Source: Erwinia sp. ErVv1 (GTDB taxonomy: Bacteria; Pseudomonadota; Gammaproteobacteria; Enterobacterales; Enterobacteriaceae). Taken from it: DNA of 64,000 nt. The number at the start of each line of letters is the position of its first letter. Position 1 is the stretch's first letter. Position numbers and translations under genes: made by a program. The notes beneath the pieces are model-generated. The model worked only from the letters and a program-made list of their open reading frames with translations. It did not search any database and had not been told where the DNA came from. Where the stretch lies: contig NZ_CDPK01000003.1 of the NCBI RefSeq assembly GCF_900068895.1, forward strand, positions 416,456 to 480,455, in the 5' to 3' direction. Positions 49,192-60,223 of this stretch are shown here, piece by piece.

Positions 49192-50382
49192 ATGACGAAT
49201 TCCGCCTTTCCCCTGACGACGGGTGTTCCCCCGGCAAACCTGGTTGACCGCGTTCGCGGCGTCGTGCAGCAGGCGCTGGACGAGCGACGGCTGGTTGGCG
49301 CGGTGGTGCTGGTCGCCCACAATGGCGAGCTGATCCACCAACAGGCCGCGGGCCTTGCCGATCGCGAAAGCGCGCGACCCATGACCCTGGAGACGGTATT
49401 TCGGCTGGCGTCAGTCAGTAAGCCGATTGTCTCTACCGCGGCAATGGTGCTGGTGGCGCAGGCGCGTCTGGATCTGGACGCCGGCATTGAACGCTGGCTC
49501 CCTGAATTCCAGCCACGTCTGGCCGATGGCGCACCGGCCTCCATCACTCTGCGACAGCTGCTGTGCCATATGGCCGGGCTAAGCTACCGCTTTTCCGAGC
49601 CTGATAACCAGGGCCCCTGCGCGCGCGCAGGGGTGTCCGACGGCCTGGATGCCTCCGGCATTAGCCTTGATGAGAACCTCCGCCGGCTGGCCAGCGTACC
49701 GCTGCTGTTCAGGCCGGGTACGGACTGGCGTTACTCACTGGCGACCGACGTACTGGGTGCGCTGATCGCCCGCGTTCAGGGTACGACGCTGGATGTGGCG
49801 GTACGGGATCTGGTGACGGGTCCACTGGGTATGACCGATAGCGGATTTGTGATGCACGACACCCAATCTGTCGCCACCCCTTACGTAAACGATACGCCGC
49901 AGCCGCACCGGCTGGCAGAGGGGGAAACCGTTCCTTTTGACGATGAAACCCTCGGCGTGCACTTCAGCCCGGGGCGGATCTTCGATCCGTCCGCTTTCCC
50001 CTCGGGTGGAGCGGGTATGGCGGGCACCGCAGGCGATGTTATGCGCCTGCTGGAAACGCTGCGCCAGCAGGGCGGAGAGCTATTGCCCGCCGATCTGGTT
50101 GCAGAAATGGGCCGCGATCAGACCGGCGGCATAAACCTCCCCGACAATCCGGGCTTCGGCTTCGGCCTGGGGTTTGCCGTTCTGCGTGATCCTCAGCAGG
50201 CCGCCTCGCCGCAGTCAGCCGGTACCTGGCGCTGGGGAGGCGTTTATGGTCATTCGTGGTTTGTGGATAAGGAGCAGGGCCTAAGCGTGGTGGCATTAAC
50301 CAATACGCTGTACGAAGGGATGTCCGGCAGTTTTGTCACCGAGCTACGGGATGCCGTTTATGCCGGGCTGGAGCCGGGGTAA
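49192..50382 (+). CDS. Serine hydrolase of the class C beta-lactamase/EstB fold
   Basis: The 396-residue protein has the SxxK motif S74-V-S-K77 in VFRLASVSKPIVS, a Tyr at YSLATDVLGALIARVQG (the YxN position reads YSL) and a HSW motif near the C terminus (YGHSWFVDKEQG), as in EstB-type esterases rather than true beta-lactamases. No signal peptide is visible, arguing for a cytosolic esterase or peptidase-like role. The stop lies within a G-rich quadruplex-type motif. Confidence 0.85.
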   Translation: MTNSAFPLTTGVPPANLVDRVRGVVQQALDERRLVGAVVLVAHNGELIHQQAAGLADRESARPMTLETVFRLASVSKPIVSTAAMVLVAQARLDLDAGIERWLPEFQPRLADGAPASITLRQLLCHMAGLSYRFSEPDNQGPCARAGVSDGLDASGISLDENLRRLASVPLLFRPGTDWRYSLATDVLGALIARVQGTTLDVAVRDLVTGPLGMTDSGFVMHDTQSVATPYVNDTPQPHRLAEGETVPFDDETLGVHFSPGRIFDPSAFPSGGAGMAGTAGDVMRLLETLRQQGGELLPADLVAEMGRDQTGGINLPDNPGFGFGLGFAVLRDPQQAASPQSAGTWRWGGVYGHSWFVDKEQGLSVVALTNTLYEGMSGSFVTELRDAVYAGLEPG

Positions 50383-50412
50383 GGCTGGGGTTTGGTTGGG
50401 GTAAGGCTGGGG
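50376..50412 (+). other. G-quadruplex-type motif at the stop codon of the serine hydrolase
   Basis: Four GGGG runs (50376-50379, 50387-50390, 50398-50401, 50409-50412) are separated by spacers of exactly 7 bases (TAAGGCT, TTTGGTT, TAAGGCT), an 11-base period. The stop TAA is inside the first spacer. G-rich, C-poor sequence continues to about 50515. It could form a stable quadruplex on the sense DNA or mRNA. Confidence 0.75.
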
Positions 50413-50529
50413 TTGTGGAGGGCTGGAGTTGGTGTTTGGCGGGAAGTGGGATGGGAACGGCGTGGGTGAGAAGAGGCGGGTGGATGGGGCGAAGGGAGGG
50501 ACGCTTCGGGGGAAATAAACCTTACTAAG

Positions 50530-50570
50530 ATCCACGCATGCGCGTGGATTTTATAGGTTTTTTTTGATGT
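50530..50570. repeat. Left 41-bp direct repeat of the fimbrial island (candidate attachment site)
   Basis: ATCCACGCATG-C-GCGTGGATTTT, then ATAGGTTTTTTTTGATGT. It matches the copy at 59050-59090 at 38 of 41 positions. It forms a hairpin (ATCCACGC/GCGTGGAT) with a T-run, so it also resembles a terminator for the serine hydrolase. The integrase remnant lies next to the other copy. Confidence 0.75.
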
Positions 50571-50588
50571 CATCTTACCCGCCAATAA

Positions 50589-50766
50589 TGGACACGCGAC
50601 TAAGTGAGTAAACTCTTAACCAGAGGTCGCTCACATGACAAAGCCAGCATCAACCAGTAAGAAGCCACGTAAGCAACATACGCCTGAGTTCCGCAACGAA
50701 GCCCTTAAGCTTGCAGAACGCATCCTCCAAAAGGCCGCGACATACTTCGCGAAGCGCCTGAAATGA
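50589..50766 (+). pseudogene. IS3-family remnant: left end and internally deleted OrfA
   Basis: TGGACACGCGACTAAGTGAG at 50589 looks like an IS3-type left end. From ATG 50635 the frame reads MTKPASTSKKPRKQHTPEFR, continues ALKLAERI and joins directly to LQKAATYFAKRLK and stop at 50766. The ends match the start and end of an OrfA of the IS3 group, with the middle removed in frame. No OrfB or right end is visible, so it is a remnant at the island's left end. Confidence 0.7.
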
Positions 50767-50780
50767 AGTAAATTTGCCCC

Positions 50781-51635
50781 TCAGATCGTTTGACTCTGGG
50801 GCAAACCTCGCAATCCATGCTCGATCATCGCCATGTAAACCGCAAAGTAGTTCAGCACCATTTGCATGAAGGTCAGGTGCAGGATGATGGTGTTGTTCTC
50901 TGTATCGAGCGTCAGTAATCCGCCAACCTCTGCGGCTTTCAGGCATCGTCTGATGTGCGAACGTGACACACCACACTTGAGCGAGGCTTTCAGGTAGTTG
51001 TACTTGATCACCGCCGTCTGCTGTTTGATGCTCTCGATATAGAGATCCATCAGCAGCATATGCCCGGCATCTCTGAAAATGAACGCCTTACAATCCGGCA
51101 CCATATCGAAGATATACACCTGACTGAGGGTGATTTCGGCATATTTTTGGAAATAAGCAGCGGTGAAATTTTCCATTTTCAGACATCCGGATACATCGAA
51201 ATCAGGATAAAGCATCCCATAGGGGATCATCATGGTATTAATTAACGCACGGGTTTCATCAAGCGCTTTTGACGTCACCTGATAGTTTAACTTTCGTTTA
51301 TCCTGGGGATCCTTTTTGACGTCCATACGGCCACCTACCCGGATAAAGAGCAGAAAGGAATCGATCGTATTGTCACTGATTAACCCCGTTTTTTTACAAA
51401 AATCTTTTACGTGGCGAAGCGTCGGTTTTTCTGTCGTAAAAAAATACGCCATGATGGCCGAACCGATAATAAAACGGTTTGCTTTAAAAATAACCTTAAA
51501 ATAGAGAGGCTTAGTCAGATAAAGTCTAAACAGAAGTTTATAGTGCTTCTGTATGGCTGCCTCAATATCTTTATGATATTTAATTACTTCTGCACGGAGG
51601 AAAATTAATTCTGTGAGTTTTTGTTTGCTCTTCAT
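50781..51635 (-). CDS. Putative winged-helix regulator beside the fimbrial operon
   Basis: The 284-residue protein (MKSKQKLTELIFLRAEVIKY...) contains two helix-turn-helix-like segments: TLRHVKDFCKKTGLISDNTIDSFLLFIRVGGRMDV, resembling a MarR-like winged helix with the wing DKRKLNYQVTSKA, and near the C terminus YLKASLKCGVSRSHIRRCLKAAEVGGLL. No signal peptide or membrane segment is evident. An upstream in-frame ATG (51662) exists. It is AT-rich and divergent to the fimbrial genes, so regulation of that operon is plausible but only inferred. Confidence 0.65.
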   Translation of the reverse strand: MKSKQKLTELIFLRAEVIKYHKDIEAAIQKHYKLLFRLYLTKPLYFKVIFKANRFIIGSAIMAYFFTTEKPTLRHVKDFCKKTGLISDNTIDSFLLFIRVGGRMDVKKDPQDKRKLNYQVTSKALDETRALINTMMIPYGMLYPDFDVSGCLKMENFTAAYFQKYAEITLSQVYIFDMVPDCKAFIFRDAGHMLLMDLYIESIKQQTAVIKYNYLKASLKCGVSRSHIRRCLKAAEVGGLLTLDTENNTIILHLTFMQMVLNYFAVYMAMIEHGLRGLPQSQTI

Positions 51636-52136
51636 ATTGATGCTTACTTTGCCTGGTTCCATAATACAAATAAAAAAATATCGCCATTGTTTTTTAGTGT
51701 TAATTTAAAATCCGTTGAGAAATGGTTAGTTGCACTATATGGCGACAGTGGGTGTTTAGCGATTTCTGTTAAAATTAATAAGGGTCTTTATTGCCCTTCT
51801 CAGGATAATCCTAGCACTAAAGTGTCTATTTCTCATAAACCCTGATTTCATTCTTACCGGTTAAAATAGTTTAAAAATCCATTACCCATACTTTCATTGT
51901 GGGTATTTTAATTAACTATTTCATTGAGTTAGGTGATTTTTATTACAGCATGGATCTTTCTGCCCTTTCTCTTAAAAAATTAACCACAAAAATGGACAGT
52001 GACATATCAGAGGCTGTGTGAGAATTTTCTTATCGCCAGGTTATACCCGTGAGCTCAGATGTCCGGGTTAACAGGGGTACTCTCAGGAGGGGAAATTACC
52101 GGCACGTTTTTTTAATGGATCTTATAAGGATTTATC
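51636..52136. other. AT-rich control region of the fimbrial operon
   Basis: About 500 AT-rich bases lie between the regulator and the fimbrial chaperone. AAGGG-TCTTTATTG-CCCTT near 51780 forms a small hairpin. AAGGA before 52137 is the ribosome site of the chaperone. No gene is supported; silencing by H-NS would be typical for such DNA. Confidence 0.5.
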
Positions 52137-52934
52137 ATGGAAGAGTCACGTCATCAGACCCTGCGTTACGGCAATTCTTTTGCGTTCTTTTGTAAAAAGA
52201 AGTGCGCCACGCTACGGTGTTTCTTACTGATAATAATGACTTTTTTATCCATGCCTGCTGCATTGGCAAATATGAGCGTTTATCCCATGGAGGTGACGCT
52301 AAATAGCCAGGGCGCAGCGCAGGTACAGACTTTGTCGCAAAGCGGCGAGGCGCAGTTTATTAAAGTCAGCATTAAGCGAATTGATCACCCTGCCACACAA
52401 TCTGAAAAAGAAATATTGATAGAAGATGCGGTTTCACGCTCGCTAATTGCTACCCCGGATAAATTCGCGCTGGCATCGGGTTCGCAACGTATCATTCGTC
52501 TTATTTCGTTAAAACCCCCGGAGAAAGAGACTGCCTGGCGTGTTTACTTCGAGGCCGTCGGTGCGCCGGAGGAATTGAAGGATAACACTGGTAAGGAGAA
52601 TAAAATCAGCAACCAGGTGGGCATCAATTTAGTCTGGGGCGTGCTGGTTCATATTCCGCCGAAACACGCTGTGTTATCACTCATTCCATTATCGTCGAGC
52701 GACGTTAAAAACAATGGCACCGTGCGAGTGGTGATCCGTGAAGTCGCTCTCTGCTTGCAAAAAAATAACAGCGGCAGCTGCCGGTGGAAACAAGAACACG
52801 CCACGGTATATCCGGATGAGACATTGCGGCTCAAATCATGGGCGCCAGCCGAAATAAACGCTGCACGGGAAATAAAAATTAAATATGTTGATCAGAAAAC
52901 GAGAAGCATGAACGAATACGTTCTCGGGAAATAA
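52137..52934 (+). CDS. Class 5 (CS1/CFA-I type) fimbrial periplasmic chaperone
   Basis: The 265-residue protein has a long basic N terminus and signal segment (LLIIMTFLSMPAALAN) followed by an Ig-like chaperone body: NMSVYPMEVTLNSQGAAQVQTL, FIKVSIKRIDHP, SGSQRIIRLISLKPPEKETAWRVYFEAV. It resembles CfaA/CooB of the alternate chaperone-usher pathway more than classic FimC/PapD. It is first in the order chaperone-pilin-usher-tip, as in coo and cfa. The two C-terminal cysteines (ALCLQ, GSCRW) may form a disulfide. Confidence 0.85.
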   Translation: MEESRHQTLRYGNSFAFFCKKKCATLRCFLLIIMTFLSMPAALANMSVYPMEVTLNSQGAAQVQTLSQSGEAQFIKVSIKRIDHPATQSEKEILIEDAVSRSLIATPDKFALASGSQRIIRLISLKPPEKETAWRVYFEAVGAPEELKDNTGKENKISNQVGINLVWGVLVHIPPKHAVLSLIPLSSSDVKNNGTVRVVIREVALCLQKNNSGSCRWKQEHATVYPDETLRLKSWAPAEINAAREIKIKYVDQKTRSMNEYVLGK

Positions 52935-53112
52935 TCAACTTATTCTAAAAGAATAACAACCTGTTTGTTATTAAGCAGTTCATTATCAATAAAACGGTCA
53001 TGGATGCGCGGCATTCTTCAAGCCGCAGGTGAGTTGGCTGTATTAAGTCACCTTCCTGCAGCTCGAACTCTTTAGCGTTATGACCATTACATGGATTTTC
53101 ATGGAGCTACAA

Positions 53113-53616
53113 ATGCAAAAATTAATCAAACCTCTTTTAATCGCTGCCGCGTTAACGGCTGCATTTAATGCACAGGCTGTGCAGAAAGATATTACTGTCA
53201 ATGCCAACGTTGATTCGACGGTCGATATGACTCAGGCAGATGGTACTGCACTGCCGGGCACCATTAATATGCAATATATTCCTGGCCTTGGTTTATCTAC
53301 TTATTCACTGGATACCAAAATCTGGTCGAATTCTTCTACCGCCAATATCAACGTGGCGCTGGTGAACACTGCCCAGTTAAACGAAACCGTAACCGGTACC
53401 GCCGTTCCGTTGAAAGTCACGCTGGGTGCAGATCTGAAACCGATCACCACCACGGCGACTTCCCTGACTTACGCATCCCTGTTTCCGGCGGGCACTGAGA
53501 ACGGTTCTTCCGTTCTGCCATTGAAAATCTCCCCGGCAACCGTAGCGCCTCTGACGACCGGCACCTATTCCGGCGTGGTCAGCCTGTTAATCACACAGGC
53601 AACGACGTCGAGCTGA
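53113..53616 (+). CDS. Class 5 fimbrial major pilin (CfaB/CooA type)
   Basis: The 167-residue protein has a signal peptide ending AFNAQA, and a mature N terminus VQKDITVNANVDSTVDMTQA that matches the donor strand and start of CFA/I-type pilins (V-K-N-I-T-V-T-A-x-V-D-type). The C terminus TGTYSGVVSLLITQ is also family-typical. The pilin has no cysteines, as usual for class 5. ATG 53113 is chosen because GGAG lies six bases upstream and a clean signal peptide results. About 180 bases separate it from the chaperone. Confidence 0.88.
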   Translation: MQKLIKPLLIAAALTAAFNAQAVQKDITVNANVDSTVDMTQADGTALPGTINMQYIPGLGLSTYSLDTKIWSNSSTANINVALVNTAQLNETVTGTAVPLKVTLGADLKPITTTATSLTYASLFPAGTENGSSVLPLKISPATVAPLTTGTYSGVVSLLITQATTSS

Positions 53617-53692
53617 TTTGCCTGAGTTGACTGATCGATTATTTTGGGGGGCAGTTTGCCCCCTTGTTATTCTTTTTCAGCAGGACGCTGTA

Positions 53693-56431
53693 ATGAAGGT
53701 CAATTTCCGCATCGTTATAATCGCCTCTTTCATTACCCTGACCCCCTTTCTTTCAGCCCGTGCTGCCACCCAGGTTCCGCCTGGTTTTGAATCGCTGGTC
53801 ACCGGCCAGACGCTGTGGCTCAATCTTTCTGTCTACGGGCAATCGCTCGGACTTTTTGAAGCTTCCGTTAACCTCGATACTGTCACTTTCCTCAAACCGG
53901 AAGACGTGGCGCAGGCAGTGATGGCGCATTATCAAAAGAGTTCTCAGCAGCAAGTGGTACTGGACCGTCTGATCGGCAAGCCTATGGCACGTAATGGAAA
54001 TCTGGCGTGCAGCAGTAACGGCGGCGCGGCAGGGTGTGACTATCTGGCAACGGACTCGGTTGCGCTTATCTATGATGAAAATAATGCCAAAGTCGCGCTG
54101 TTCCTCGGCCCTGAGTTTGTGCCGCTTGCCGCAGACAAGAGCTCGCCATACTTCGAACAGACGGCAGAAACGGAAGCGGCGTTTATCCATCAGCAGAATA
54201 TTAACTTCGTTACCAACAACGATGACCAGACGTTATCCGTGCAGGGCGCGGGCGCGCTCGGGCTGACGGAAAATAGTTATGCCGGTATTGACTGGGATTA
54301 TCTGGCGCAGAAATATCGCCAGCAAAATCATCAGGATGTGCATTTTAACAACGTTTTCCTGCGCCGTGACGTCGGCAAACGCTATTACGTTCAGGCGGGG
54401 CGTATGGACTCGCGAGATATTTTCAGCAACGCAGGCGGAAATATTACCCTCAGCCAGTTGCCGCTCAGCACCATCGAAGGTGCGCGTGTTGGTTCCACGC
54501 TCGCCTGGATGAACAACTCACAGGCCGCGCAGGGCACGCCGGTGACGGTGTTTATCACCCGCCCGTCGCGCATTGATGCCTATCGCGATCGGCAGTTGCT
54601 CGGCACCTTTTACCTGAATGAGGGGACGCAGAACCTCAATACCACCGCGTTCCCTAACGGCAGCTACACCGTGACGTTGCGCGTTTACGAAGATAACCAG
54701 TTGTCGCGCACCGAGCAGGTGCTTTTTAGCCGTACGGGCAATGCCACCAGCCAGAACATCGAATGGTTTGTGCAGGGCGGTGCCATTCCTGACCACGAGG
54801 TACAGGGCAATGGTGCAGAATCAAAAAACGGTACCGATCGCCGCGTGATGCAGGCGGGGATCAAAGTGCCGCTCACCCGTGAAGCCGCGCTCACCGGTGG
54901 TGTGGCCGCGACCAATCGCCACCATTTTATCGAAAGCGCACTCGATTGGAGTCACGGATTTGATAACCCGCTGCTCGACGGCATTCTCACCACCCGCTTC
55001 AGTTACCTGAAGGGCAGCGAAGGCTCGCGCGGCAACATTCAGCAGGTCACCTATAACGACGGTTTTTCCCTCAGCTTTTACCGGAGCGCGCTGTATGCGC
55101 AGGATTGTTACAGCAACAACGGCGGCCAATACGGTTTTAGCGGTTGCTATCAGAGCAGCAGCCTGATGTTCAGCGTGCCGGTGAAAAGCTGGTATGTGAA
55201 CGCCGGTTACAGCGCCAGCAAAAATCAAGGCCGCAACGTGATCCCGGCGCAGCTCGATGATAAAGACGTGGTGCCGGTGTGGACACGCCGCAGCAGCTAT
55301 AACAAAACGCAGACAGCCACCTGGCAGGCCGGGCTGGGGCGCGGTTACAGCGTCGGCGGCATCAATATCAATACCAGCGCCAACCTTTTTACGCGTACCA
55401 ACAGCACCGGCATGAAGCGCGATAACGGCGGATTTCTCTCCGTTTCGCTCTCGAGGGTCAGCACGCCGACGATTAATGCGCGCTCGAACTACAGCTCGGT
55501 GGGCATGACTTATCAGACTGACCGCAGCAGTAAAGATCAGGTTAGCTATAGCGTCGCGCAAAACTGGTATTTCGATGCGCAGAACCAGCAGGAGATCGGC
55601 GTGAATCTCAACGGAAATCAGGACAATACGCTGAATGCTTCGGTCTACGGCAAAACCAGCGGCGAGTACGGCAGCGGCAGTCTGGCGTTCAGTTCAGCCT
55701 CTTCGGGCGCGTCAAGCCAGCGTTTAAGCAGTAGCGGCAGCTATAACTCCTCAATGGCGGTAGCAAAATCTGGTCTGTACTGGGGGAAATGGGGTAACGG
55801 CCTGCCCGGTGCTGCCGTCGGGCTGAACGTCGAGAGCACCGATGACAGCAGGGATACCCGCGTGGATGTCTCCGTTGACGGCGCGGGCAGCGCCAGTCTG
55901 CACGGTACCGGCCGAACGTTGTTCAGCGTGCCGGCGTATACGCAAAGTAATATCAGCATCAATGACTCCATCGAATCCACCGCCGGTATGCGCAGTGAAA
56001 TCACGCAGGGTGCCGGACGCCGGACGCTGTTTATCGCGCCGGGACGGATGCTGGTCAGCAAGGTGAATATCGTCTCGCGCTACACCTATCTCGGCAGACT
56101 GATGATCAATCAGCAAACGCCGCTGGAAGGCGCTACGCCGCTAAATGTCGCCAGCTGGTCGGGATTAGGGCAGGGCGGATTCACGGCGGAAACCGATCGC
56201 CGCATGAAAAATTTATATATGGCACGTGGCATGCAGATTTACCGCTGCGAACTGAAGGTGAAAAGCACGCATGACGTCGTGCGTTATGTCGGCGACAGCG
56301 ATTGTAAAACGGTCGAACTCGCGTCTGTGCCGCAGGGCGTTCAGCAGCAGGCAAAAATGCTGATCGCTACCCGCCGGACGGATGAAGGTCCTCTTGCGCG
56401 GGCAGAGTTTTCCTCGCAGGAACAACAATAG
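53693..56431 (+). CDS. Class 5 fimbrial outer-membrane usher (CfaC/CooC type)
   Basis: The usher forms the outer-membrane pore through which pilins are assembled. The 912-residue protein has a signal peptide ending SARAA, an N-terminal periplasmic domain, a long beta barrel with a plug, and C-terminal domains. Segments such as QVPPGFESLVTGQTLWLNLSVYG and NGSYTVTLRVYEDNQLSRTEQVLFSR fit alternate-pathway ushers. The start ATG 53693 follows AGGACGCTGTA; an upstream ATG in frame is unlikely. It is intact and in the expected place after the pilin. Confidence 0.88.
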   Translation: MKVNFRIVIIASFITLTPFLSARAATQVPPGFESLVTGQTLWLNLSVYGQSLGLFEASVNLDTVTFLKPEDVAQAVMAHYQKSSQQQVVLDRLIGKPMARNGNLACSSNGGAAGCDYLATDSVALIYDENNAKVALFLGPEFVPLAADKSSPYFEQTAETEAAFIHQQNINFVTNNDDQTLSVQGAGALGLTENSYAGIDWDYLAQKYRQQNHQDVHFNNVFLRRDVGKRYYVQAGRMDSRDIFSNAGGNITLSQLPLSTIEGARVGSTLAWMNNSQAAQGTPVTVFITRPSRIDAYRDRQLLGTFYLNEGTQNLNTTAFPNGSYTVTLRVYEDNQLSRTEQVLFSRTGNATSQNIEWFVQGGAIPDHEVQGNGAESKNGTDRRVMQAGIKVPLTREAALTGGVAATNRHHFIESALDWSHGFDNPLLDGILTTRFSYLKGSEGSRGNIQQVTYNDGFSLSFYRSALYAQDCYSNNGGQYGFSGCYQSSSLMFSVPVKSWYVNAGYSASKNQGRNVIPAQLDDKDVVPVWTRRSSYNKTQTATWQAGLGRGYSVGGININTSANLFTRTNSTGMKRDNGGFLSVSLSRVSTPTINARSNYSSVGMTYQTDRSSKDQVSYSVAQNWYFDAQNQQEIGVNLNGNQDNTLNASVYGKTSGEYGSGSLAFSSASSGASSQRLSSSGSYNSSMAVAKSGLYWGKWGNGLPGAAVGLNVESTDDSRDTRVDVSVDGAGSASLHGTGRTLFSVPAYTQSNISINDSIESTAGMRSEITQGAGRRTLFIAPGRMLVSKVNIVSRYTYLGRLMINQQTPLEGATPLNVASWSGLGQGGFTAETDRRMKNLYMARGMQIYRCELKVKSTHDVVRYVGDSDCKTVELASVPQGVQQQAKMLIATRRTDEGPLARAEFSSQEQQ

Positions 56432-56440
56432 GGATTTTGT

Positions 56441-57598
56441 ATGAAAAGTAGATTTCTCGCCTGTCTGGCGCTGATATGCCTGATGGCTGGCGCGCAGGCG
56501 GCTTCGCTCACGCCGTCAGGACGCAATACCAGCATCGCCGTGTCCTTTGACCGGATGTCTGTACCGGCGCAGTTGCCCATCTGGACCAACGAAAACGGCG
56601 GTTATGACACCAACGATGCACCAAAATGGGGGCGGAACACGCTGGTTTGTCAGTCAGGAACCAGCAATCAGTACGGTGCCTGCCTGACGTTTCCGGTCTG
56701 GCTGGAAGCGTCCCCCGCGCCATATCCCGTGCCGGTCTTGTTTACCGAAAGCACCACTAAACAGACGCTGGTGCTCAATGTCTATATGACCAAACGTAGA
56801 TCGCTAAATAATGTGGTAGTGGCAACCAATCTGGTTCCGCTGAATGCCTTTGGCGGCGAGGTTACGCCGAGGAGCGACGGTACGGATTATTCGGCGTATG
56901 TAACTTCGTCGGAACTGAGTAAATTTCCCGCCGCCGGAACCTGGAGCGGAACGCTCAAAATGTCGCTGATGCAATGGCCCGTAACCTGTACCGGGAATCC
57001 GCAGAACGTGAACGTGGGCTGTACCAACGCGATCAAGCTGGCTGACTGGATCGCCAGCATGGCGTTTAAGGTGACGGATTACGGTAATCAGCAGGTCTAT
57101 CTGCCCGAGTTTGGCAATGCGGCGGCGAATGTGGATCTCGGGCTGAAAATCCTCCCCGGCGCGCGTGCCACCACCACCGTAAGCGGCAGTCGTTCGCTGG
57201 ATATGTGTCTTTATGATGGCAATAATTCGGACAGCAACCGCGTAAGCCTGATATTTCAGGACGAAGGTTCTGCCGCGCCCTCCAGAGCCACCGGGTTGTT
57301 TTCGTTATATCTCATTGGTGGGAATAAAAATCTGGCGCAAGATCGTCTGGATTATTCGATAGAGGTGATTAACCCGCTGACCAAAGCGCGGCAGGCAGTG
57401 CAAAACGGCACCGAGGTCATCTGGAGCGGCACCAATAAAGGCGTATTACGACGCGTCGTATTACCGGGACAGCGCAATTCTGTGCTGTGCGTTCCCGCAC
57501 CGATGGAGTTGATTACGCCGTCTTTCACTTTGTCGTCAAAAACGGCCGGGCGATATCGCGGTACCCTGAGGATTATTTATACCCCGACCACGCAATAA
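56441..57598 (+). CDS. Class 5 fimbrial tip protein/adhesin (CfaE/CooD type)
   Basis: The 385-residue protein has a signal peptide (cleavage near AQA-A) and a two-domain adhesin layout: an N-terminal receptor-binding part with paired cysteines (TLVCQSGTSNQYGACLTFP, VTCTGNPQNVNVGCTN) and a C-terminal pilin-like domain (VDLGLKILPGARATTTVSGS) ending RYRGTLRIIYTPT. It starts nine bases after the usher stop. The receptor on plant, insect or other surfaces is unknown. Confidence 0.85.
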   Translation: MKSRFLACLALICLMAGAQAASLTPSGRNTSIAVSFDRMSVPAQLPIWTNENGGYDTNDAPKWGRNTLVCQSGTSNQYGACLTFPVWLEASPAPYPVPVLFTESTTKQTLVLNVYMTKRRSLNNVVVATNLVPLNAFGGEVTPRSDGTDYSAYVTSSELSKFPAAGTWSGTLKMSLMQWPVTCTGNPQNVNVGCTNAIKLADWIASMAFKVTDYGNQQVYLPEFGNAAANVDLGLKILPGARATTTVSGSRSLDMCLYDGNNSDSNRVSLIFQDEGSAAPSRATGLFSLYLIGGNKNLAQDRLDYSIEVINPLTKARQAVQNGTEVIWSGTNKGVLRRVVLPGQRNSVLCVPAPMELITPSFTLSSKTAGRYRGTLRIIYTPTTQ

Positions 57599-57639
57599 TT
57601 CCCCGAAAGATTTATTTGCTACTGAATAAAATTGTTGGA

Positions 57640-58233
57640 TTAATAGTGATGAATAAGACGCTTATACAGATGAAGGCTGTTTTTGAGGTTGAGTTTTTTA
57701 ACCACATTCGCCTGATAACTGTAGAGCGTTTTTTTGTTTTTACCGGTTATTTTCGCCACACCATCAATTGAACCTTGGGTGAATAAAGAACACAGGAAAC
57801 TGAATTCGCGTTTTGTTAAATCATTACTCATCACGGATGAGGGAAATGACAGGCCGTTTTTGTGAAGTAACAGCATCTCCGCAAGTTTACTAATAATCAT
57901 GTCTGTGGAGGATTTTTTATCGATAAAAAAGTCGGCTTTGATGCCGTGCTCACTATAGCTAAAAATATTTCTCTCAAAGTCGGAGAAGAAAATCAGCGTT
58001 GCGTTTAGATTGATTTTGATTCGTGTCAGATAATCGATGTATGTCAGCGTAGTGCGGAAATTGGCTGGTAAATCAAAAATAATCAACGGCGACGATATGG
58101 ATTGACTTTTTCGGTCATTAAGCCTGTTTTTTATTTCACGAATATCGCTGCAACAGCATAACAGTGATTCACCGATCAACGCAGTCAGGCCCTGCTGGTG
58201 AAAGTAGGACTGATCCAAATAAATAGCATCCAT
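57640..58233 (-). CDS. LuxR-type regulator, putative fimbrial switch
   Basis: The 197-residue protein ends in a LuxR/GerE helix-turn-helix (LTKREFSFLCSLFTQG ... IAKITGKNKKTLYSYQANVVKKLN-like). The N-terminal part is receiver-like in shape but lacks a clear acidic phosphorylation pocket. Orphan regulators of this type (EcpR/MatA, FimW) control fimbriae in enterics. It is convergent with the tip gene, 41 bases away, and AT-rich. Confidence 0.78.
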   Translation of the reverse strand: MDAIYLDQSYFHQQGLTALIGESLLCCCSDIREIKNRLNDRKSQSISSPLIIFDLPANFRTTLTYIDYLTRIKINLNATLIFFSDFERNIFSYSEHGIKADFFIDKKSSTDMIISKLAEMLLLHKNGLSFPSSVMSNDLTKREFSFLCSLFTQGSIDGVAKITGKNKKTLYSYQANVVKKLNLKNSLHLYKRLIHHY

Positions 58234-58468
58234 TTTAATTTCCGATGAGGTTTTCCTTATTCTCCGAATAATATCGGTTTCATGGTAAAAGTTAACTGTC
58301 CATTTTTGGTGCTAAGTTTTTCTGCTACCTCCAAGCCGGTTATTCCTGATTATGGCTTGATCACATACGGGGAGCGGGTCAACATATATTGTAGGTTGAA
58401 TTTTAAGTTTAAAAGGGCAGTTATAAAAACATATATTAATCAATGATAAAACATCAATACATCATAGT

Positions 58469-58917
58469 TTACGAAACATCAGCACTGTTGCTAGTACTGT
58501 TTATCCATGCATCAAGTTTATCAGCCCAATCCTGCATCATCACTTTACGTTCATCAAGATAGGTCGCATGGTTATAGGTGCGGCGAACATTGTTGCTATC
58601 GGCGTGCGCAAGCTGAGTTTCGATAGCATCAGGTCGATAGCCCATTTCGTTTAAACGCACACCTGACGAGCCTTCGTCGGCTTAACTCCATCCGCGACTT
58701 ACATTCGCGCTTGCTCGCACACTTCCCGCGAGCTTCGGCAAGTTTGACCGTCGGGTACTCACCCAGCGCAAACATGCTGGATTTACCGTTAAGTTTAAAC
58801 CGATAGCGCCAGGCCTTTTTGCCATTGGGTTTCACTTCGATATAGACCGTAGAAATCATTGAGCCGATAGAATTTTTCTTTCGGCCTGGCAGTGCGGCAT
58901 TGCGTATCGGTGAGCAT
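58469..58917 (-). pseudogene. Decayed P4-type tyrosine integrase
   Basis: From ATG 58917 the frame reads MLTDTQCRTARPKEKFYRLN then DFYGLY, then shifts to IEVKPNGKKAWRYRFKLNGKSSMFALGEYP, shifts again near ADGVKPTKARQ, and after a large deletion continues as RLNEMGYRPDAIETQLAHAD and onward to a stop at 58469. These are the N-terminal DUF4102-type and the C-terminal catalytic end of P4-like integrases, without the middle (Arg-His-Arg core). It is non-functional and lies close to the right direct repeat, as expected for an island integrase. Confidence 0.85.
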
Positions 58918-59049
58918 AACGGGCCTTGTTTATTTATTATACCGTTATTGAGCTCACTTAAAATGAAGATGGAAGAATGTTGTACTCATCCACGTACTTA
59001 TTTTTGACTGCGTTGTTACGAAATGAGGTGAGCCTTTATGAAATGAAAA

Positions 59050-59090
59050 ATCCACGCATGTGCGTGGATTTTGAAGGTTTTTTTTGATGT
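59050..59090. repeat. Right 41-bp direct repeat of the fimbrial island (candidate attachment site)
   Basis: ATCCACGCATG-T-GCGTGGATTTT followed by GAAGGTTTTTTTTGATGT; 38 of 41 positions equal the left copy at 50530-50570. It forms the hairpin downstream of ychF. The segment between the two copies is about 8.5 kb and contains the fimbrial operon and the integrase remnant. Confidence 0.75.
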
Positions 59091-59131
59091 GCATGAGGTG
59101 CAGTGAAACCTCATAAGACAACAGAAGCTAT

Positions 59132-60223
59132 TTAGACGTTGAACAGGAAGTTCATCACGTCGCCATCTTTAACGATGTACTCTTTGCCTTCGGAGCGCAT
59201 CTTACCGGCTTCTTTCGCGCCCTGTTCACCCTTGTAGGTGATGAAATCTTCATAGGCGATGGTCTGGGCGCGGATAAAGCCCTTCTCGAAGTCGGTGTGG
59301 ATTTTACCGGCGGCCTGTGGAGCGGTAGCGCCGACCGGGATGGTCCAGGCACGTACTTCCTTCACGCCTGCGGTAAAGTAGGTTTGCAGATTCAGCAGGG
59401 CATAGCCCGCGCGGATCACGCGGTTCAGGCCTGGCTCTTCAATGCCCAGCTCGGCCATAAACTCTTCGCGGTCGGCGTCGTCCAGCTCGGCGATATCGGA
59501 TTCAACTGCCGCACACACGGCAACCACCACTGAGCCTTCGGCATCGGCGATTTCACGCACTTTGTCGAGGTAAGGATTGTTCTCGAAGCCGTCTTCGTTA
59601 ACGTTGGCAATATACATGGTGGGCTTCAGGGTCAGGAAGCTCAGGTGGCGGATGGCCGCTTTATCATCGTCGTTAAGATCCAGCGAGCGCAGCATACCGG
59701 CATTGGAAAGGTGCGGCAGACACTTCTCCAGTGCGGCCTGCTCGGCCTTAGCGTCCTTGTCGCCGCCCTTGGCTTTTTTCTGCACGCGCTGGAGCGCACG
59801 TTCGCAGGTATCCAGGTCAGAAAGCGCCAGCTCGGTATTGATAACGTCAATATCGTCAGCCGGATCGACCTTGTTATTCACGTGGATGATGTTGTCATTC
59901 TCGAAGCAGCGTACCACGTGGCCGATAGCTTCGGTTTCGCGGATATTGGTCAGGAACTGGTTACCCAGACCTTCACCTTTCGAGGCACCTTTCACCAGGC
60001 CAGCGATATCCACGAATTCCATGGTGGTCGGCAGGATACGCTGCGGCTTAACGATTTCAGCCAGCTTATCCAGGCGGGAATCAGGCATTGGCACCACGCC
60101 GGTGTTTGGCTCAATGGTACAGAACGGGAAGTTAGCTGCTTCGATGCCCGCTTTGGTTAACGCATTGAACAGAGTCGATTTTCCGACGTTCGGCAGGCCC
60201 ACAATACCGCATTTGAATCCCAT
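59132..60223 (-). CDS. ychF: Redox-regulated ATPase YchF (OLA1/Obg-like)
   Basis: YchF is a conserved P-loop ATPase that binds ribosomes and, in E. coli, modulates catalase and stress responses. The 363-residue protein has the P-loop [12 protein letters not shown], the switch [19 protein letters not shown], a coiled insertion and the C-terminal TGS domain ([25 protein letters not shown]). It is complete and ends MNFLFNV. Its 3' side carries the right island repeat. Confidence 0.97.

Follow-up and report, generated by a model that had tools for sequence, protein, structure and literature searches.

The window analysed here is a stretch of 64,000 nucleotides of the genome of Erwinia sp. ErVv1 (NZ_CDPK01000003.1, positions 416,456 to 480,455), in which 8.5 kb of DNA between a serine hydrolase gene and ychF, which codes for a conserved ATPase, are bounded by two direct repeats and contain a fimbrial operon as well as a broken integrase gene of the P4 type. 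Based on comparisons with related loci, we argue that this block is very probably what remains, in decayed form, of a genomic island that inserted site-specifically at the end of ychF. The kind of element is already known; the site and the replacement of the ychF terminator are the interesting part.

Results

The direct repeat (50527-50570 and 59047-59090) is 44 nt long with 40 identities, and the 41-bp repeat with 38 identities described in a first-pass annotation of the window is its inner part. The 20-nt palindrome of the repeat was found, with up to three mismatches, at two places in the window, each on both strands (0.02 expected in the shuffled window), and at only these two places in the 4.7-Mb genome. 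The annotation had described both repeats as hairpins with T-runs; the hairpins stand, but in the direction of ychF transcription a T-run directly follows the stem in the right copy only, while the left copy has ATCTTAG there. The right copy is the hairpin of the element, now serving as the terminator of ychF. The left copy, a truncated hairpin of the ychF terminator type with the start of a 3' untranslated region (UTR), most likely represents the terminator that ychF had before the insertion moved it away, and is the probable remainder of the distal junction. No tRNA or tmRNA gene was found in the 64-kb window, so that the block does not qualify as a tRNA-targeted island; the annotation's view that an island is integrated at ychF and not at a tRNA gene is retained.

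The integrase remnant (58519-58917, minus strand) has its start ATG at 58917 and consists of a frameshifted N-terminal part followed by the C-terminal end. Pfam recognises the N-terminal arm domain, while the match of the C-terminal end is below the cut-off. At the DNA level, an intact relative matches 58663-59140, i.e. the integrase start, the arm region and the ychF end, as well as 58519-58657; ~750 bp are absent between the two pieces, corresponding to ~250 residues (roughly residues 86-335). As the annotation had stated, the P4-type integrase is therefore broken and the island apparently immobile. Compared with the E. coli integrase of the ychF site, the surviving pieces are 86.9% identical over 481 bp, partly upstream of the gene, and 88.5% identical over 139 bp. 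The arm region of the element, which extends from the integrase to the hairpin (58918-59046, minus strand), lies within the 481-bp match to the E. coli ychF-integrase junction. ychF itself (59132-60223, minus strand), an open reading frame with homologues in relatives, is the host gene of the attachment site, and its last 13 bp including the stop codon (59132-59144, minus strand) are the crossover core GTTCAACGTCTAA, as defined in E. coli. The integrase start and the ychF stop codon (59132-59134) have the usual spacing of ~200-220 bp with the hairpin between them. In this analysis, we defined elements at the ychF end by an integrase of at least 50% identity, the spacing of its start, a second, distal core and an intact integrase. 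The window island has the first two and neither of the last two; because it lacks a distal core, we claim a relic and not a complete element.

In E. coli, empty and occupied sites were compared, partly with an empty-site query (30 of 5375 records listed). In the empty strains MS8324 and JCM 20135, ychF ends with TTCAACGTCTAA, which is followed by TTCCGCG, an unrelated terminator and, 400 bp on, dhaR. In the occupied strain SK1144, the core is followed by the UTR of the element, the hairpin ATCCACGC, TGAGTAC repeats, which we read as putative arm sites, and the integrase; at the far end, ~27 kb away, the core occurs again before TTCCGC together with a similar, not identical, native UTR and dhaR. 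The E. coli element carries the hairpin on its integrase side; the far junction of SK1144 has a native terminator with no relation to it. In strain S1-IND-02-A, the far piece lies ~40 kb from ychF and begins at query base 188, the first core base, and in three other E. coli genomes with two places among the matches listed the ychF piece ends at query base 200, the last core base. The overlap of the junction pieces, bases 188-200, is GTTCAACGTCTAA. This overlap indicates that the core is the end of the coding sequence and that the hairpin travels with the element; by this mapping, the crossover core is the last 12-13 bp of ychF, encoding F-N-V-stop. Among 5426 E. coli genomes, the empty-site query matched at a single place with at least 80% in 683, and a query of the ychF end plus integrase was covered to at least 80% at one place in 627. 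An intact relative of the window integrase follows ychF in E. coli and Salmonella records.

We scanned the genomes of 84,980 species with three query integrases, the third of which, 60% identical, comes from a Pseudomonas plasmid and is not beside ychF. The scan gave 306 relatives, of which the best 80, corresponding to 79 distinct loci, were kept. In 60 of the 79 loci, the integrase match is preceded by ychF, whose end lies 94-270 bp away. Sorted by identity to the E. coli protein, ychF is directly upstream in 60 of the 62 loci with at least 50% identity and in 0 of the 17 below; one exception, L141, has the core, and its contig starts inside ychF. A tree was built from the 68 loci in which at least 340 residues precede a stop codon. 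One branch (support 100/99) separates the 51 ychF-site rows, with L141 counted among them, from all other rows; the 11 loci left out as too short were ten ychF-site loci and L128. The hosts are Enterobacterales, Pseudomonas and several Betaproteobacteria as well as a Desulfuromonadaceae metagenome-assembled genome that may be contaminated. Moreover, a related integrase split into two pieces lies 3' of ychF in an Aeromonas caviae record that the tree does not include. Of 60 loci, 50 have a terminator-like structure no more than 120 nt from the ychF stop codon, versus 35 of 1200 shuffles. Up to 11.3 kb from the stop codon, we found six downstream cores, versus 0.46 expected at equal base frequencies; in the four far junctions among them that lie outside Enterobacterales, the repeated ychF sequence is longer by a few bases (TTCCTG). 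In a phage collection, no record had more than 60% identity to the integrase fragment searched.

Three plasmid records were also noted. L111 (5419-6687) is an integrase with 60% identity encoded by a conjugative plasmid of Pseudomonas veronii, with no ychF in the 12 kb fetched. L104 and L105 are labelled as plasmids and have a gene run known from the chromosome around ychF; they are possibly misassembled or derived from the chromosome.

Within the genus, we compared 37 genomes, i.e. the window's own (G000), the species-mate G060 and 35 others. A search for ychF and its terminator in 60 genomes including the window's own gave matches in 58, and every one of the 35 other genus genomes was among these. 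Past the ychF stop codon, the DNA (up to 20 kb per species, and less than 5 kb for G003, G008, G009, G024 and G034) is highly variable, with genes in common within small species groups. The serine hydrolase gene was not found in this DNA in the 35 other genus species, nor was the exact empty site for which the annotation had proposed to look, with a single repeat copy between this gene and ychF. Integrase pieces occur within 2.5 kb of the ychF stop codon in 14 of the 37 genomes; in a search with part of the integrase as query, the open frames of the near matches had at most 314 aa, compared with 391 in the intact protein. A hairpin of this type lies within 110 nt of the ychF end in 31 of the 37 genomes when two substitutions are allowed, and thus the hairpin alone is no mark of an insert. 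A second ychF 3' end with hairpin is present 3.8-22.5 kb away in four genomes; its core is exact in G060 and G033 and has one difference in G012 (CTTA for CTAA) and G030 (CTGA). In G013, a far core with two mismatches lies 1.6 kb away. AAATATCAAT is found upstream of the far core in G060, G033, G012 and G013, not in G030; when the distal element-end motif of these four genomes was sought in the window, the best match was an unconvincing 19/30.

According to the annotation, genomes that lack the island and yet have both repeats would speak against it. To the letter, this combination exists in G002, G004, G012, G013, G019, G030 and G033, with other DNA between the copies. Because of this other DNA and the core at the far copy, we read the second hairpins in G012, G013, G030 and G033 as probable other islands at the same ychF site.

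The species-mate G060 contains the window island at 99% and, with three hairpins, has one more than the window genome. Between the counterpart of the right repeat and ychF, it has an additional unit of 3.8 kb, whose integrase is likewise broken (L107, L106; G060:C1:2043001-2083000). The displaced copy begins with GTTCAACGTCTAA and continues with the ychF UTR of the window genome, while ychF of G060 has a new UTR; the window genome therefore represents the empty state for this second unit. By this arrangement, the unit nearer to ychF is the younger element.

To the left of the island lies the serine hydrolase gene (49192-50382, plus strand; PF00144 family, E 2e-68), which forms the chromosomal flank. 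Directly 3' of it, a G-rich low-complexity stretch (50376-50470) has repeats spaced by 11 bp. Inside the island, the first feature is the orfA remnant of an IS3-family insertion sequence (IS) with an internal deletion (50572-50770, plus strand), which starts about where the repeat identity ends. It is a piece of an IS that is present in 12 of the 37 genus genomes, and IS matches elsewhere mostly begin at query base 8, corresponding to 50572, with a few at bases 1-5. It is followed by a gene for a probable regulator of 293 aa (50781-51662, minus strand) without a family match above the cut-off (a helix-turn-helix match only, E 0.029).

The next four genes, all on the plus strand, encode a TcfA-like fimbrial chaperone (52137-52934; NF011836 of NCBIfam, 121 bits, cut-off 500), a major pilin of the CS1 type (53113-53616; PF04449, E 1.5e-21), a TcfC-type usher (53693-56431; PF17271, PF16967 and PF15976) and a CblD-type tip protein or initiator (56441-57598; PF07434, E 4e-82). 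The pilin, usher and tip protein pass the Pfam cut-offs, which places the system in class 5 (CS1/Tcf), and the chaperone is TcfA-like below its cut-off; by these matches, the genes are a four-gene class 5 (CS1/Tcf-like) fimbrial operon with a predicted surface fibre. Class 5 fimbriae such as Tcf, CS1 and cable pili likewise have a chaperone, a major pilin, an usher and a tip protein; the window operon differs in that it is flanked by a LuxR-like gene and the gene for the 293-aa probable regulator. The LuxR-like regulator (57640-58233, minus strand) has a weak match to GerE (E 0.0019, below the cut-off). The regulator of CS1 belongs to the AraC family; no AraC-family match was found among the nine window proteins scanned with Pfam. 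Altogether, the contents listed in the annotation, i.e. an IS3 remnant, a regulator, a class 5 fimbrial operon, a LuxR regulator and a decayed integrase, were confirmed, with both regulators below family cut-offs. Two 27-nt putative regulator sites lie upstream of the fimbrial operon (51974-52000) and of the luxR-like gene (58295-58321). They match at 23 of 27 positions in inverted orientation, 0 of 300 shuffles gave a pairing as good, and both are kept in G021; by sequence they are candidate shared sites for the LuxR-like protein.

In G021, the block 50799-58335 (7.5 kb), which has the regulator gene at its left end, is continuous at 92.6% identity (L204 5578-13111) and lies at 4.97 Mb, 2.9 Mb from the ychF of that genome. 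The integrase fragments of the island had no match in the 19 kb fetched around it. This location away from ychF shows that the block is separable. The usher is present in 4 of the 37 genus genomes, in one of them at 45%.

A 30-nt UTR signature was trained on 27 integrase-bearing loci and used with a threshold of 2.0. Its median score was 39.6 in training and 37.8 with each locus left out in turn (lowest -8.2), compared with a 99th percentile of -2.9 and a maximum of 6.3 in shuffles. Native sites scored -12.3 (MS8324), -12.3 (JCM 20135), -20.8 (SK1144 far end), -2.2 (L132) and -18.9 (L133). Of the 14 genus genomes with integrase pieces, 13 are above the threshold, compared with 9 of the 23 without; G018, which has integrase pieces, scores 0.0, and G008 and G003 are within 0.5 of the threshold. 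The ychF 3' UTR of E. coli K-12 (L109 6275-6400) scores 41.6, like element-bearing loci, without an integrase; no significant integrase remnant was found in the K-12 ychF-ycgV gap. DNA of the K-12 type beyond ychF is present, with at least 80% cover, in 4056 of 5426 E. coli genomes. It is plausible that the high-scoring UTRs of the K-12 type are scars of lost elements; in the reverse case, this UTR would be ancestral and would have been replaced in strains like MS8324.

Discussion

In the scheme that we propose, a P4-type tyrosine recombinase would recombine the 12-13-nt core common to the element and the last ychF codons. Integration would keep ychF intact, with the element supplying the stop codon, the 3' UTR and the terminator hairpin as well as the arm sites and the integrase just beyond, while the old ychF 3' end and its terminator would be displaced to the far end of the insert. 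Because the element supplies a new stop codon, UTR and terminator, hairpins are possible on both sides. The integration scheme was shown by the allelic comparison in E. coli and is supported by five far junctions in the genus. In the window, we infer that the distal core was lost through an IS3 insertion with a deletion next to it, which spared the 44-nt left repeat, that the 750-bp deletion and the frameshift killed the integrase, and that the fimbrial module (~50.8-58.3 kb) was either cargo or a later insertion. The IS remnant starts right beside 50570, where the repeat identity stops, and this would explain the missing left core. Later elements would insert at the rebuilt ychF end, and islands would thus stack with the youngest next to ychF, as in G060.

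Several observations weigh against this interpretation. No second core was found in the window, and the left junction is coreless, so that it is identified through the hairpin, the IS boundary and analogy. Both hairpins of the window resemble each other more (40/44) than the copies listed outside the species, and recombination at the core only does not by itself explain this likeness; a close relative may have been the source of the element, or sequence may have been exchanged between the copies. In G002, G004 and G019, the outer hairpin is coreless; core matches with one mismatch in G017 and G019 lack a UTR and a hairpin and were set aside as probable chance matches. Across bacteria, the strict core pattern is present in 54 of the 62 loci, and seven of the remaining eight have ychF with a variant core. 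L128, which encodes a 91% identical integrase, is without ychF or core in 276 bp of contig upstream, and its omission from the tree means that the tree does not test it.

The hairpin terminator itself could have been the attachment core, as the annotation had proposed with a terminator beside ychF taking the place of a tRNA gene. Hairpins do bound the window island, several genus genomes have a second hairpin to the left of ychF, and the coreless outer hairpins would fit this idea; however, E. coli elements inserted at the ychF core although the terminators native to the empty site and to the SK1144 far end are unlike the hairpin, and the four far junctions outside Enterobacterales have the core without this hairpin. 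The idea is contradicted for the family, and we rejected the hairpin as its crossover core since the empty and occupied E. coli sites put the core in the last ychF codons; for the window island it is very improbable, and of the annotation's proposal the ychF locus stands while the terminator as recombination site does not. We consider it just as improbable that the repeats are a common bidirectional terminator that bounds the block by coincidence, with the fimbrial operon having arrived another way. The hairpin type is near ychF in most of the genus, over half of these genomes being without a listed integrase piece, it lies far from ychF in G006, G010 and G011, and the fimbrial module is elsewhere in G021. 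By contrast, the integrase remnant has the usual distance from ychF, and the two copies are closest to each other, the species-mate's copies aside (the next best of 51 matches scanned is 35/44). A common terminator family, which the annotation had named as a further ground for abandoning the island, was rejected for this genome, where the hairpin occurs at only two places.

Compatible with a real ychF element is the possibility that the fimbrial module was never its cargo and was inserted later by homologous or IS-driven recombination. The G021 block away from ychF, without matching integrase fragments nearby, and the IS remnant that abuts the left end of the block favour such an insertion; the G021 copy could, however, descend from a ychF element that landed elsewhere, and a known transposon end was not identified at the ends of the block. 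We place this scenario slightly short of an even chance.

Islands of the P4 type, whose integrases combine Arm-DNA-bind_3 and Phage_integrase domains, use tRNA genes as sites. The ychF elements resemble them in the integrase family, the integrase beside the target, the rebuilt 3' end, the direct repeats and the several islands per site; they differ in that they target the last codons of a protein-coding gene and bring its terminator, and in that one integrase clade is dedicated to ychF across two bacterial classes. icd and guaA are protein-coding genes rebuilt by islands. These systems share with the ychF elements the insertion within the coding end and its reconstitution, and differ in the genes and, as far as is known, in the integrases. 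A class of islands that rebuild a protein-coding gene is mentioned in PMC12884075; neither this paper nor PMC10121019, which deals with E. coli defence islands, names ychF in the main text. PMC10383233, PMC8637289 and PMC6375853 describe pneumococcal prophages that insert upstream of ychF and report an effect on ychF expression; these prophages likewise have ychF as neighbour and an integrase beside it, but their site is intergenic and upstream, as opposed to the 3' end of ychF. In the open-licence literature, we found no description of a ychF 3'-end site in Proteobacteria, and integrase databases may list it.

In total, these observations describe a protein-coding integration hotspot with a 12-13-nt core and one integrase clade in Gamma- and Betaproteobacteria, which helps to explain the variable DNA beside ychF between species. 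In the two E. coli islands examined (SK1144 and S1-IND-02-A; L108, L191, L209), the site carries matches to anti-phage models: proteins of the SK1144 island match LmuA, LmuB, LmuC and an RT-Toprim reverse transcriptase, annotated as retron Ec67, and the S1-IND-02-A island has a match to a PDC-S06-like ATPase. Intact ychF-site integrases are potential site-specific tools for a conserved position on the chromosome, and stacked islands are datable by their order. As the element replaces the ychF terminator, each island is readable as a natural experiment on the 3' control of ychF. We tentatively suggest, without quite favouring it, that the terminator and 3' UTR of ychF are a mobile part of the gene, that many present ychF genes, including those of K-12 and most sequenced E. 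coli, may end in the UTR and terminator of a lost element, and that repeated insertion would build an age-ordered stack and reset the 3' control of a conserved ATPase.

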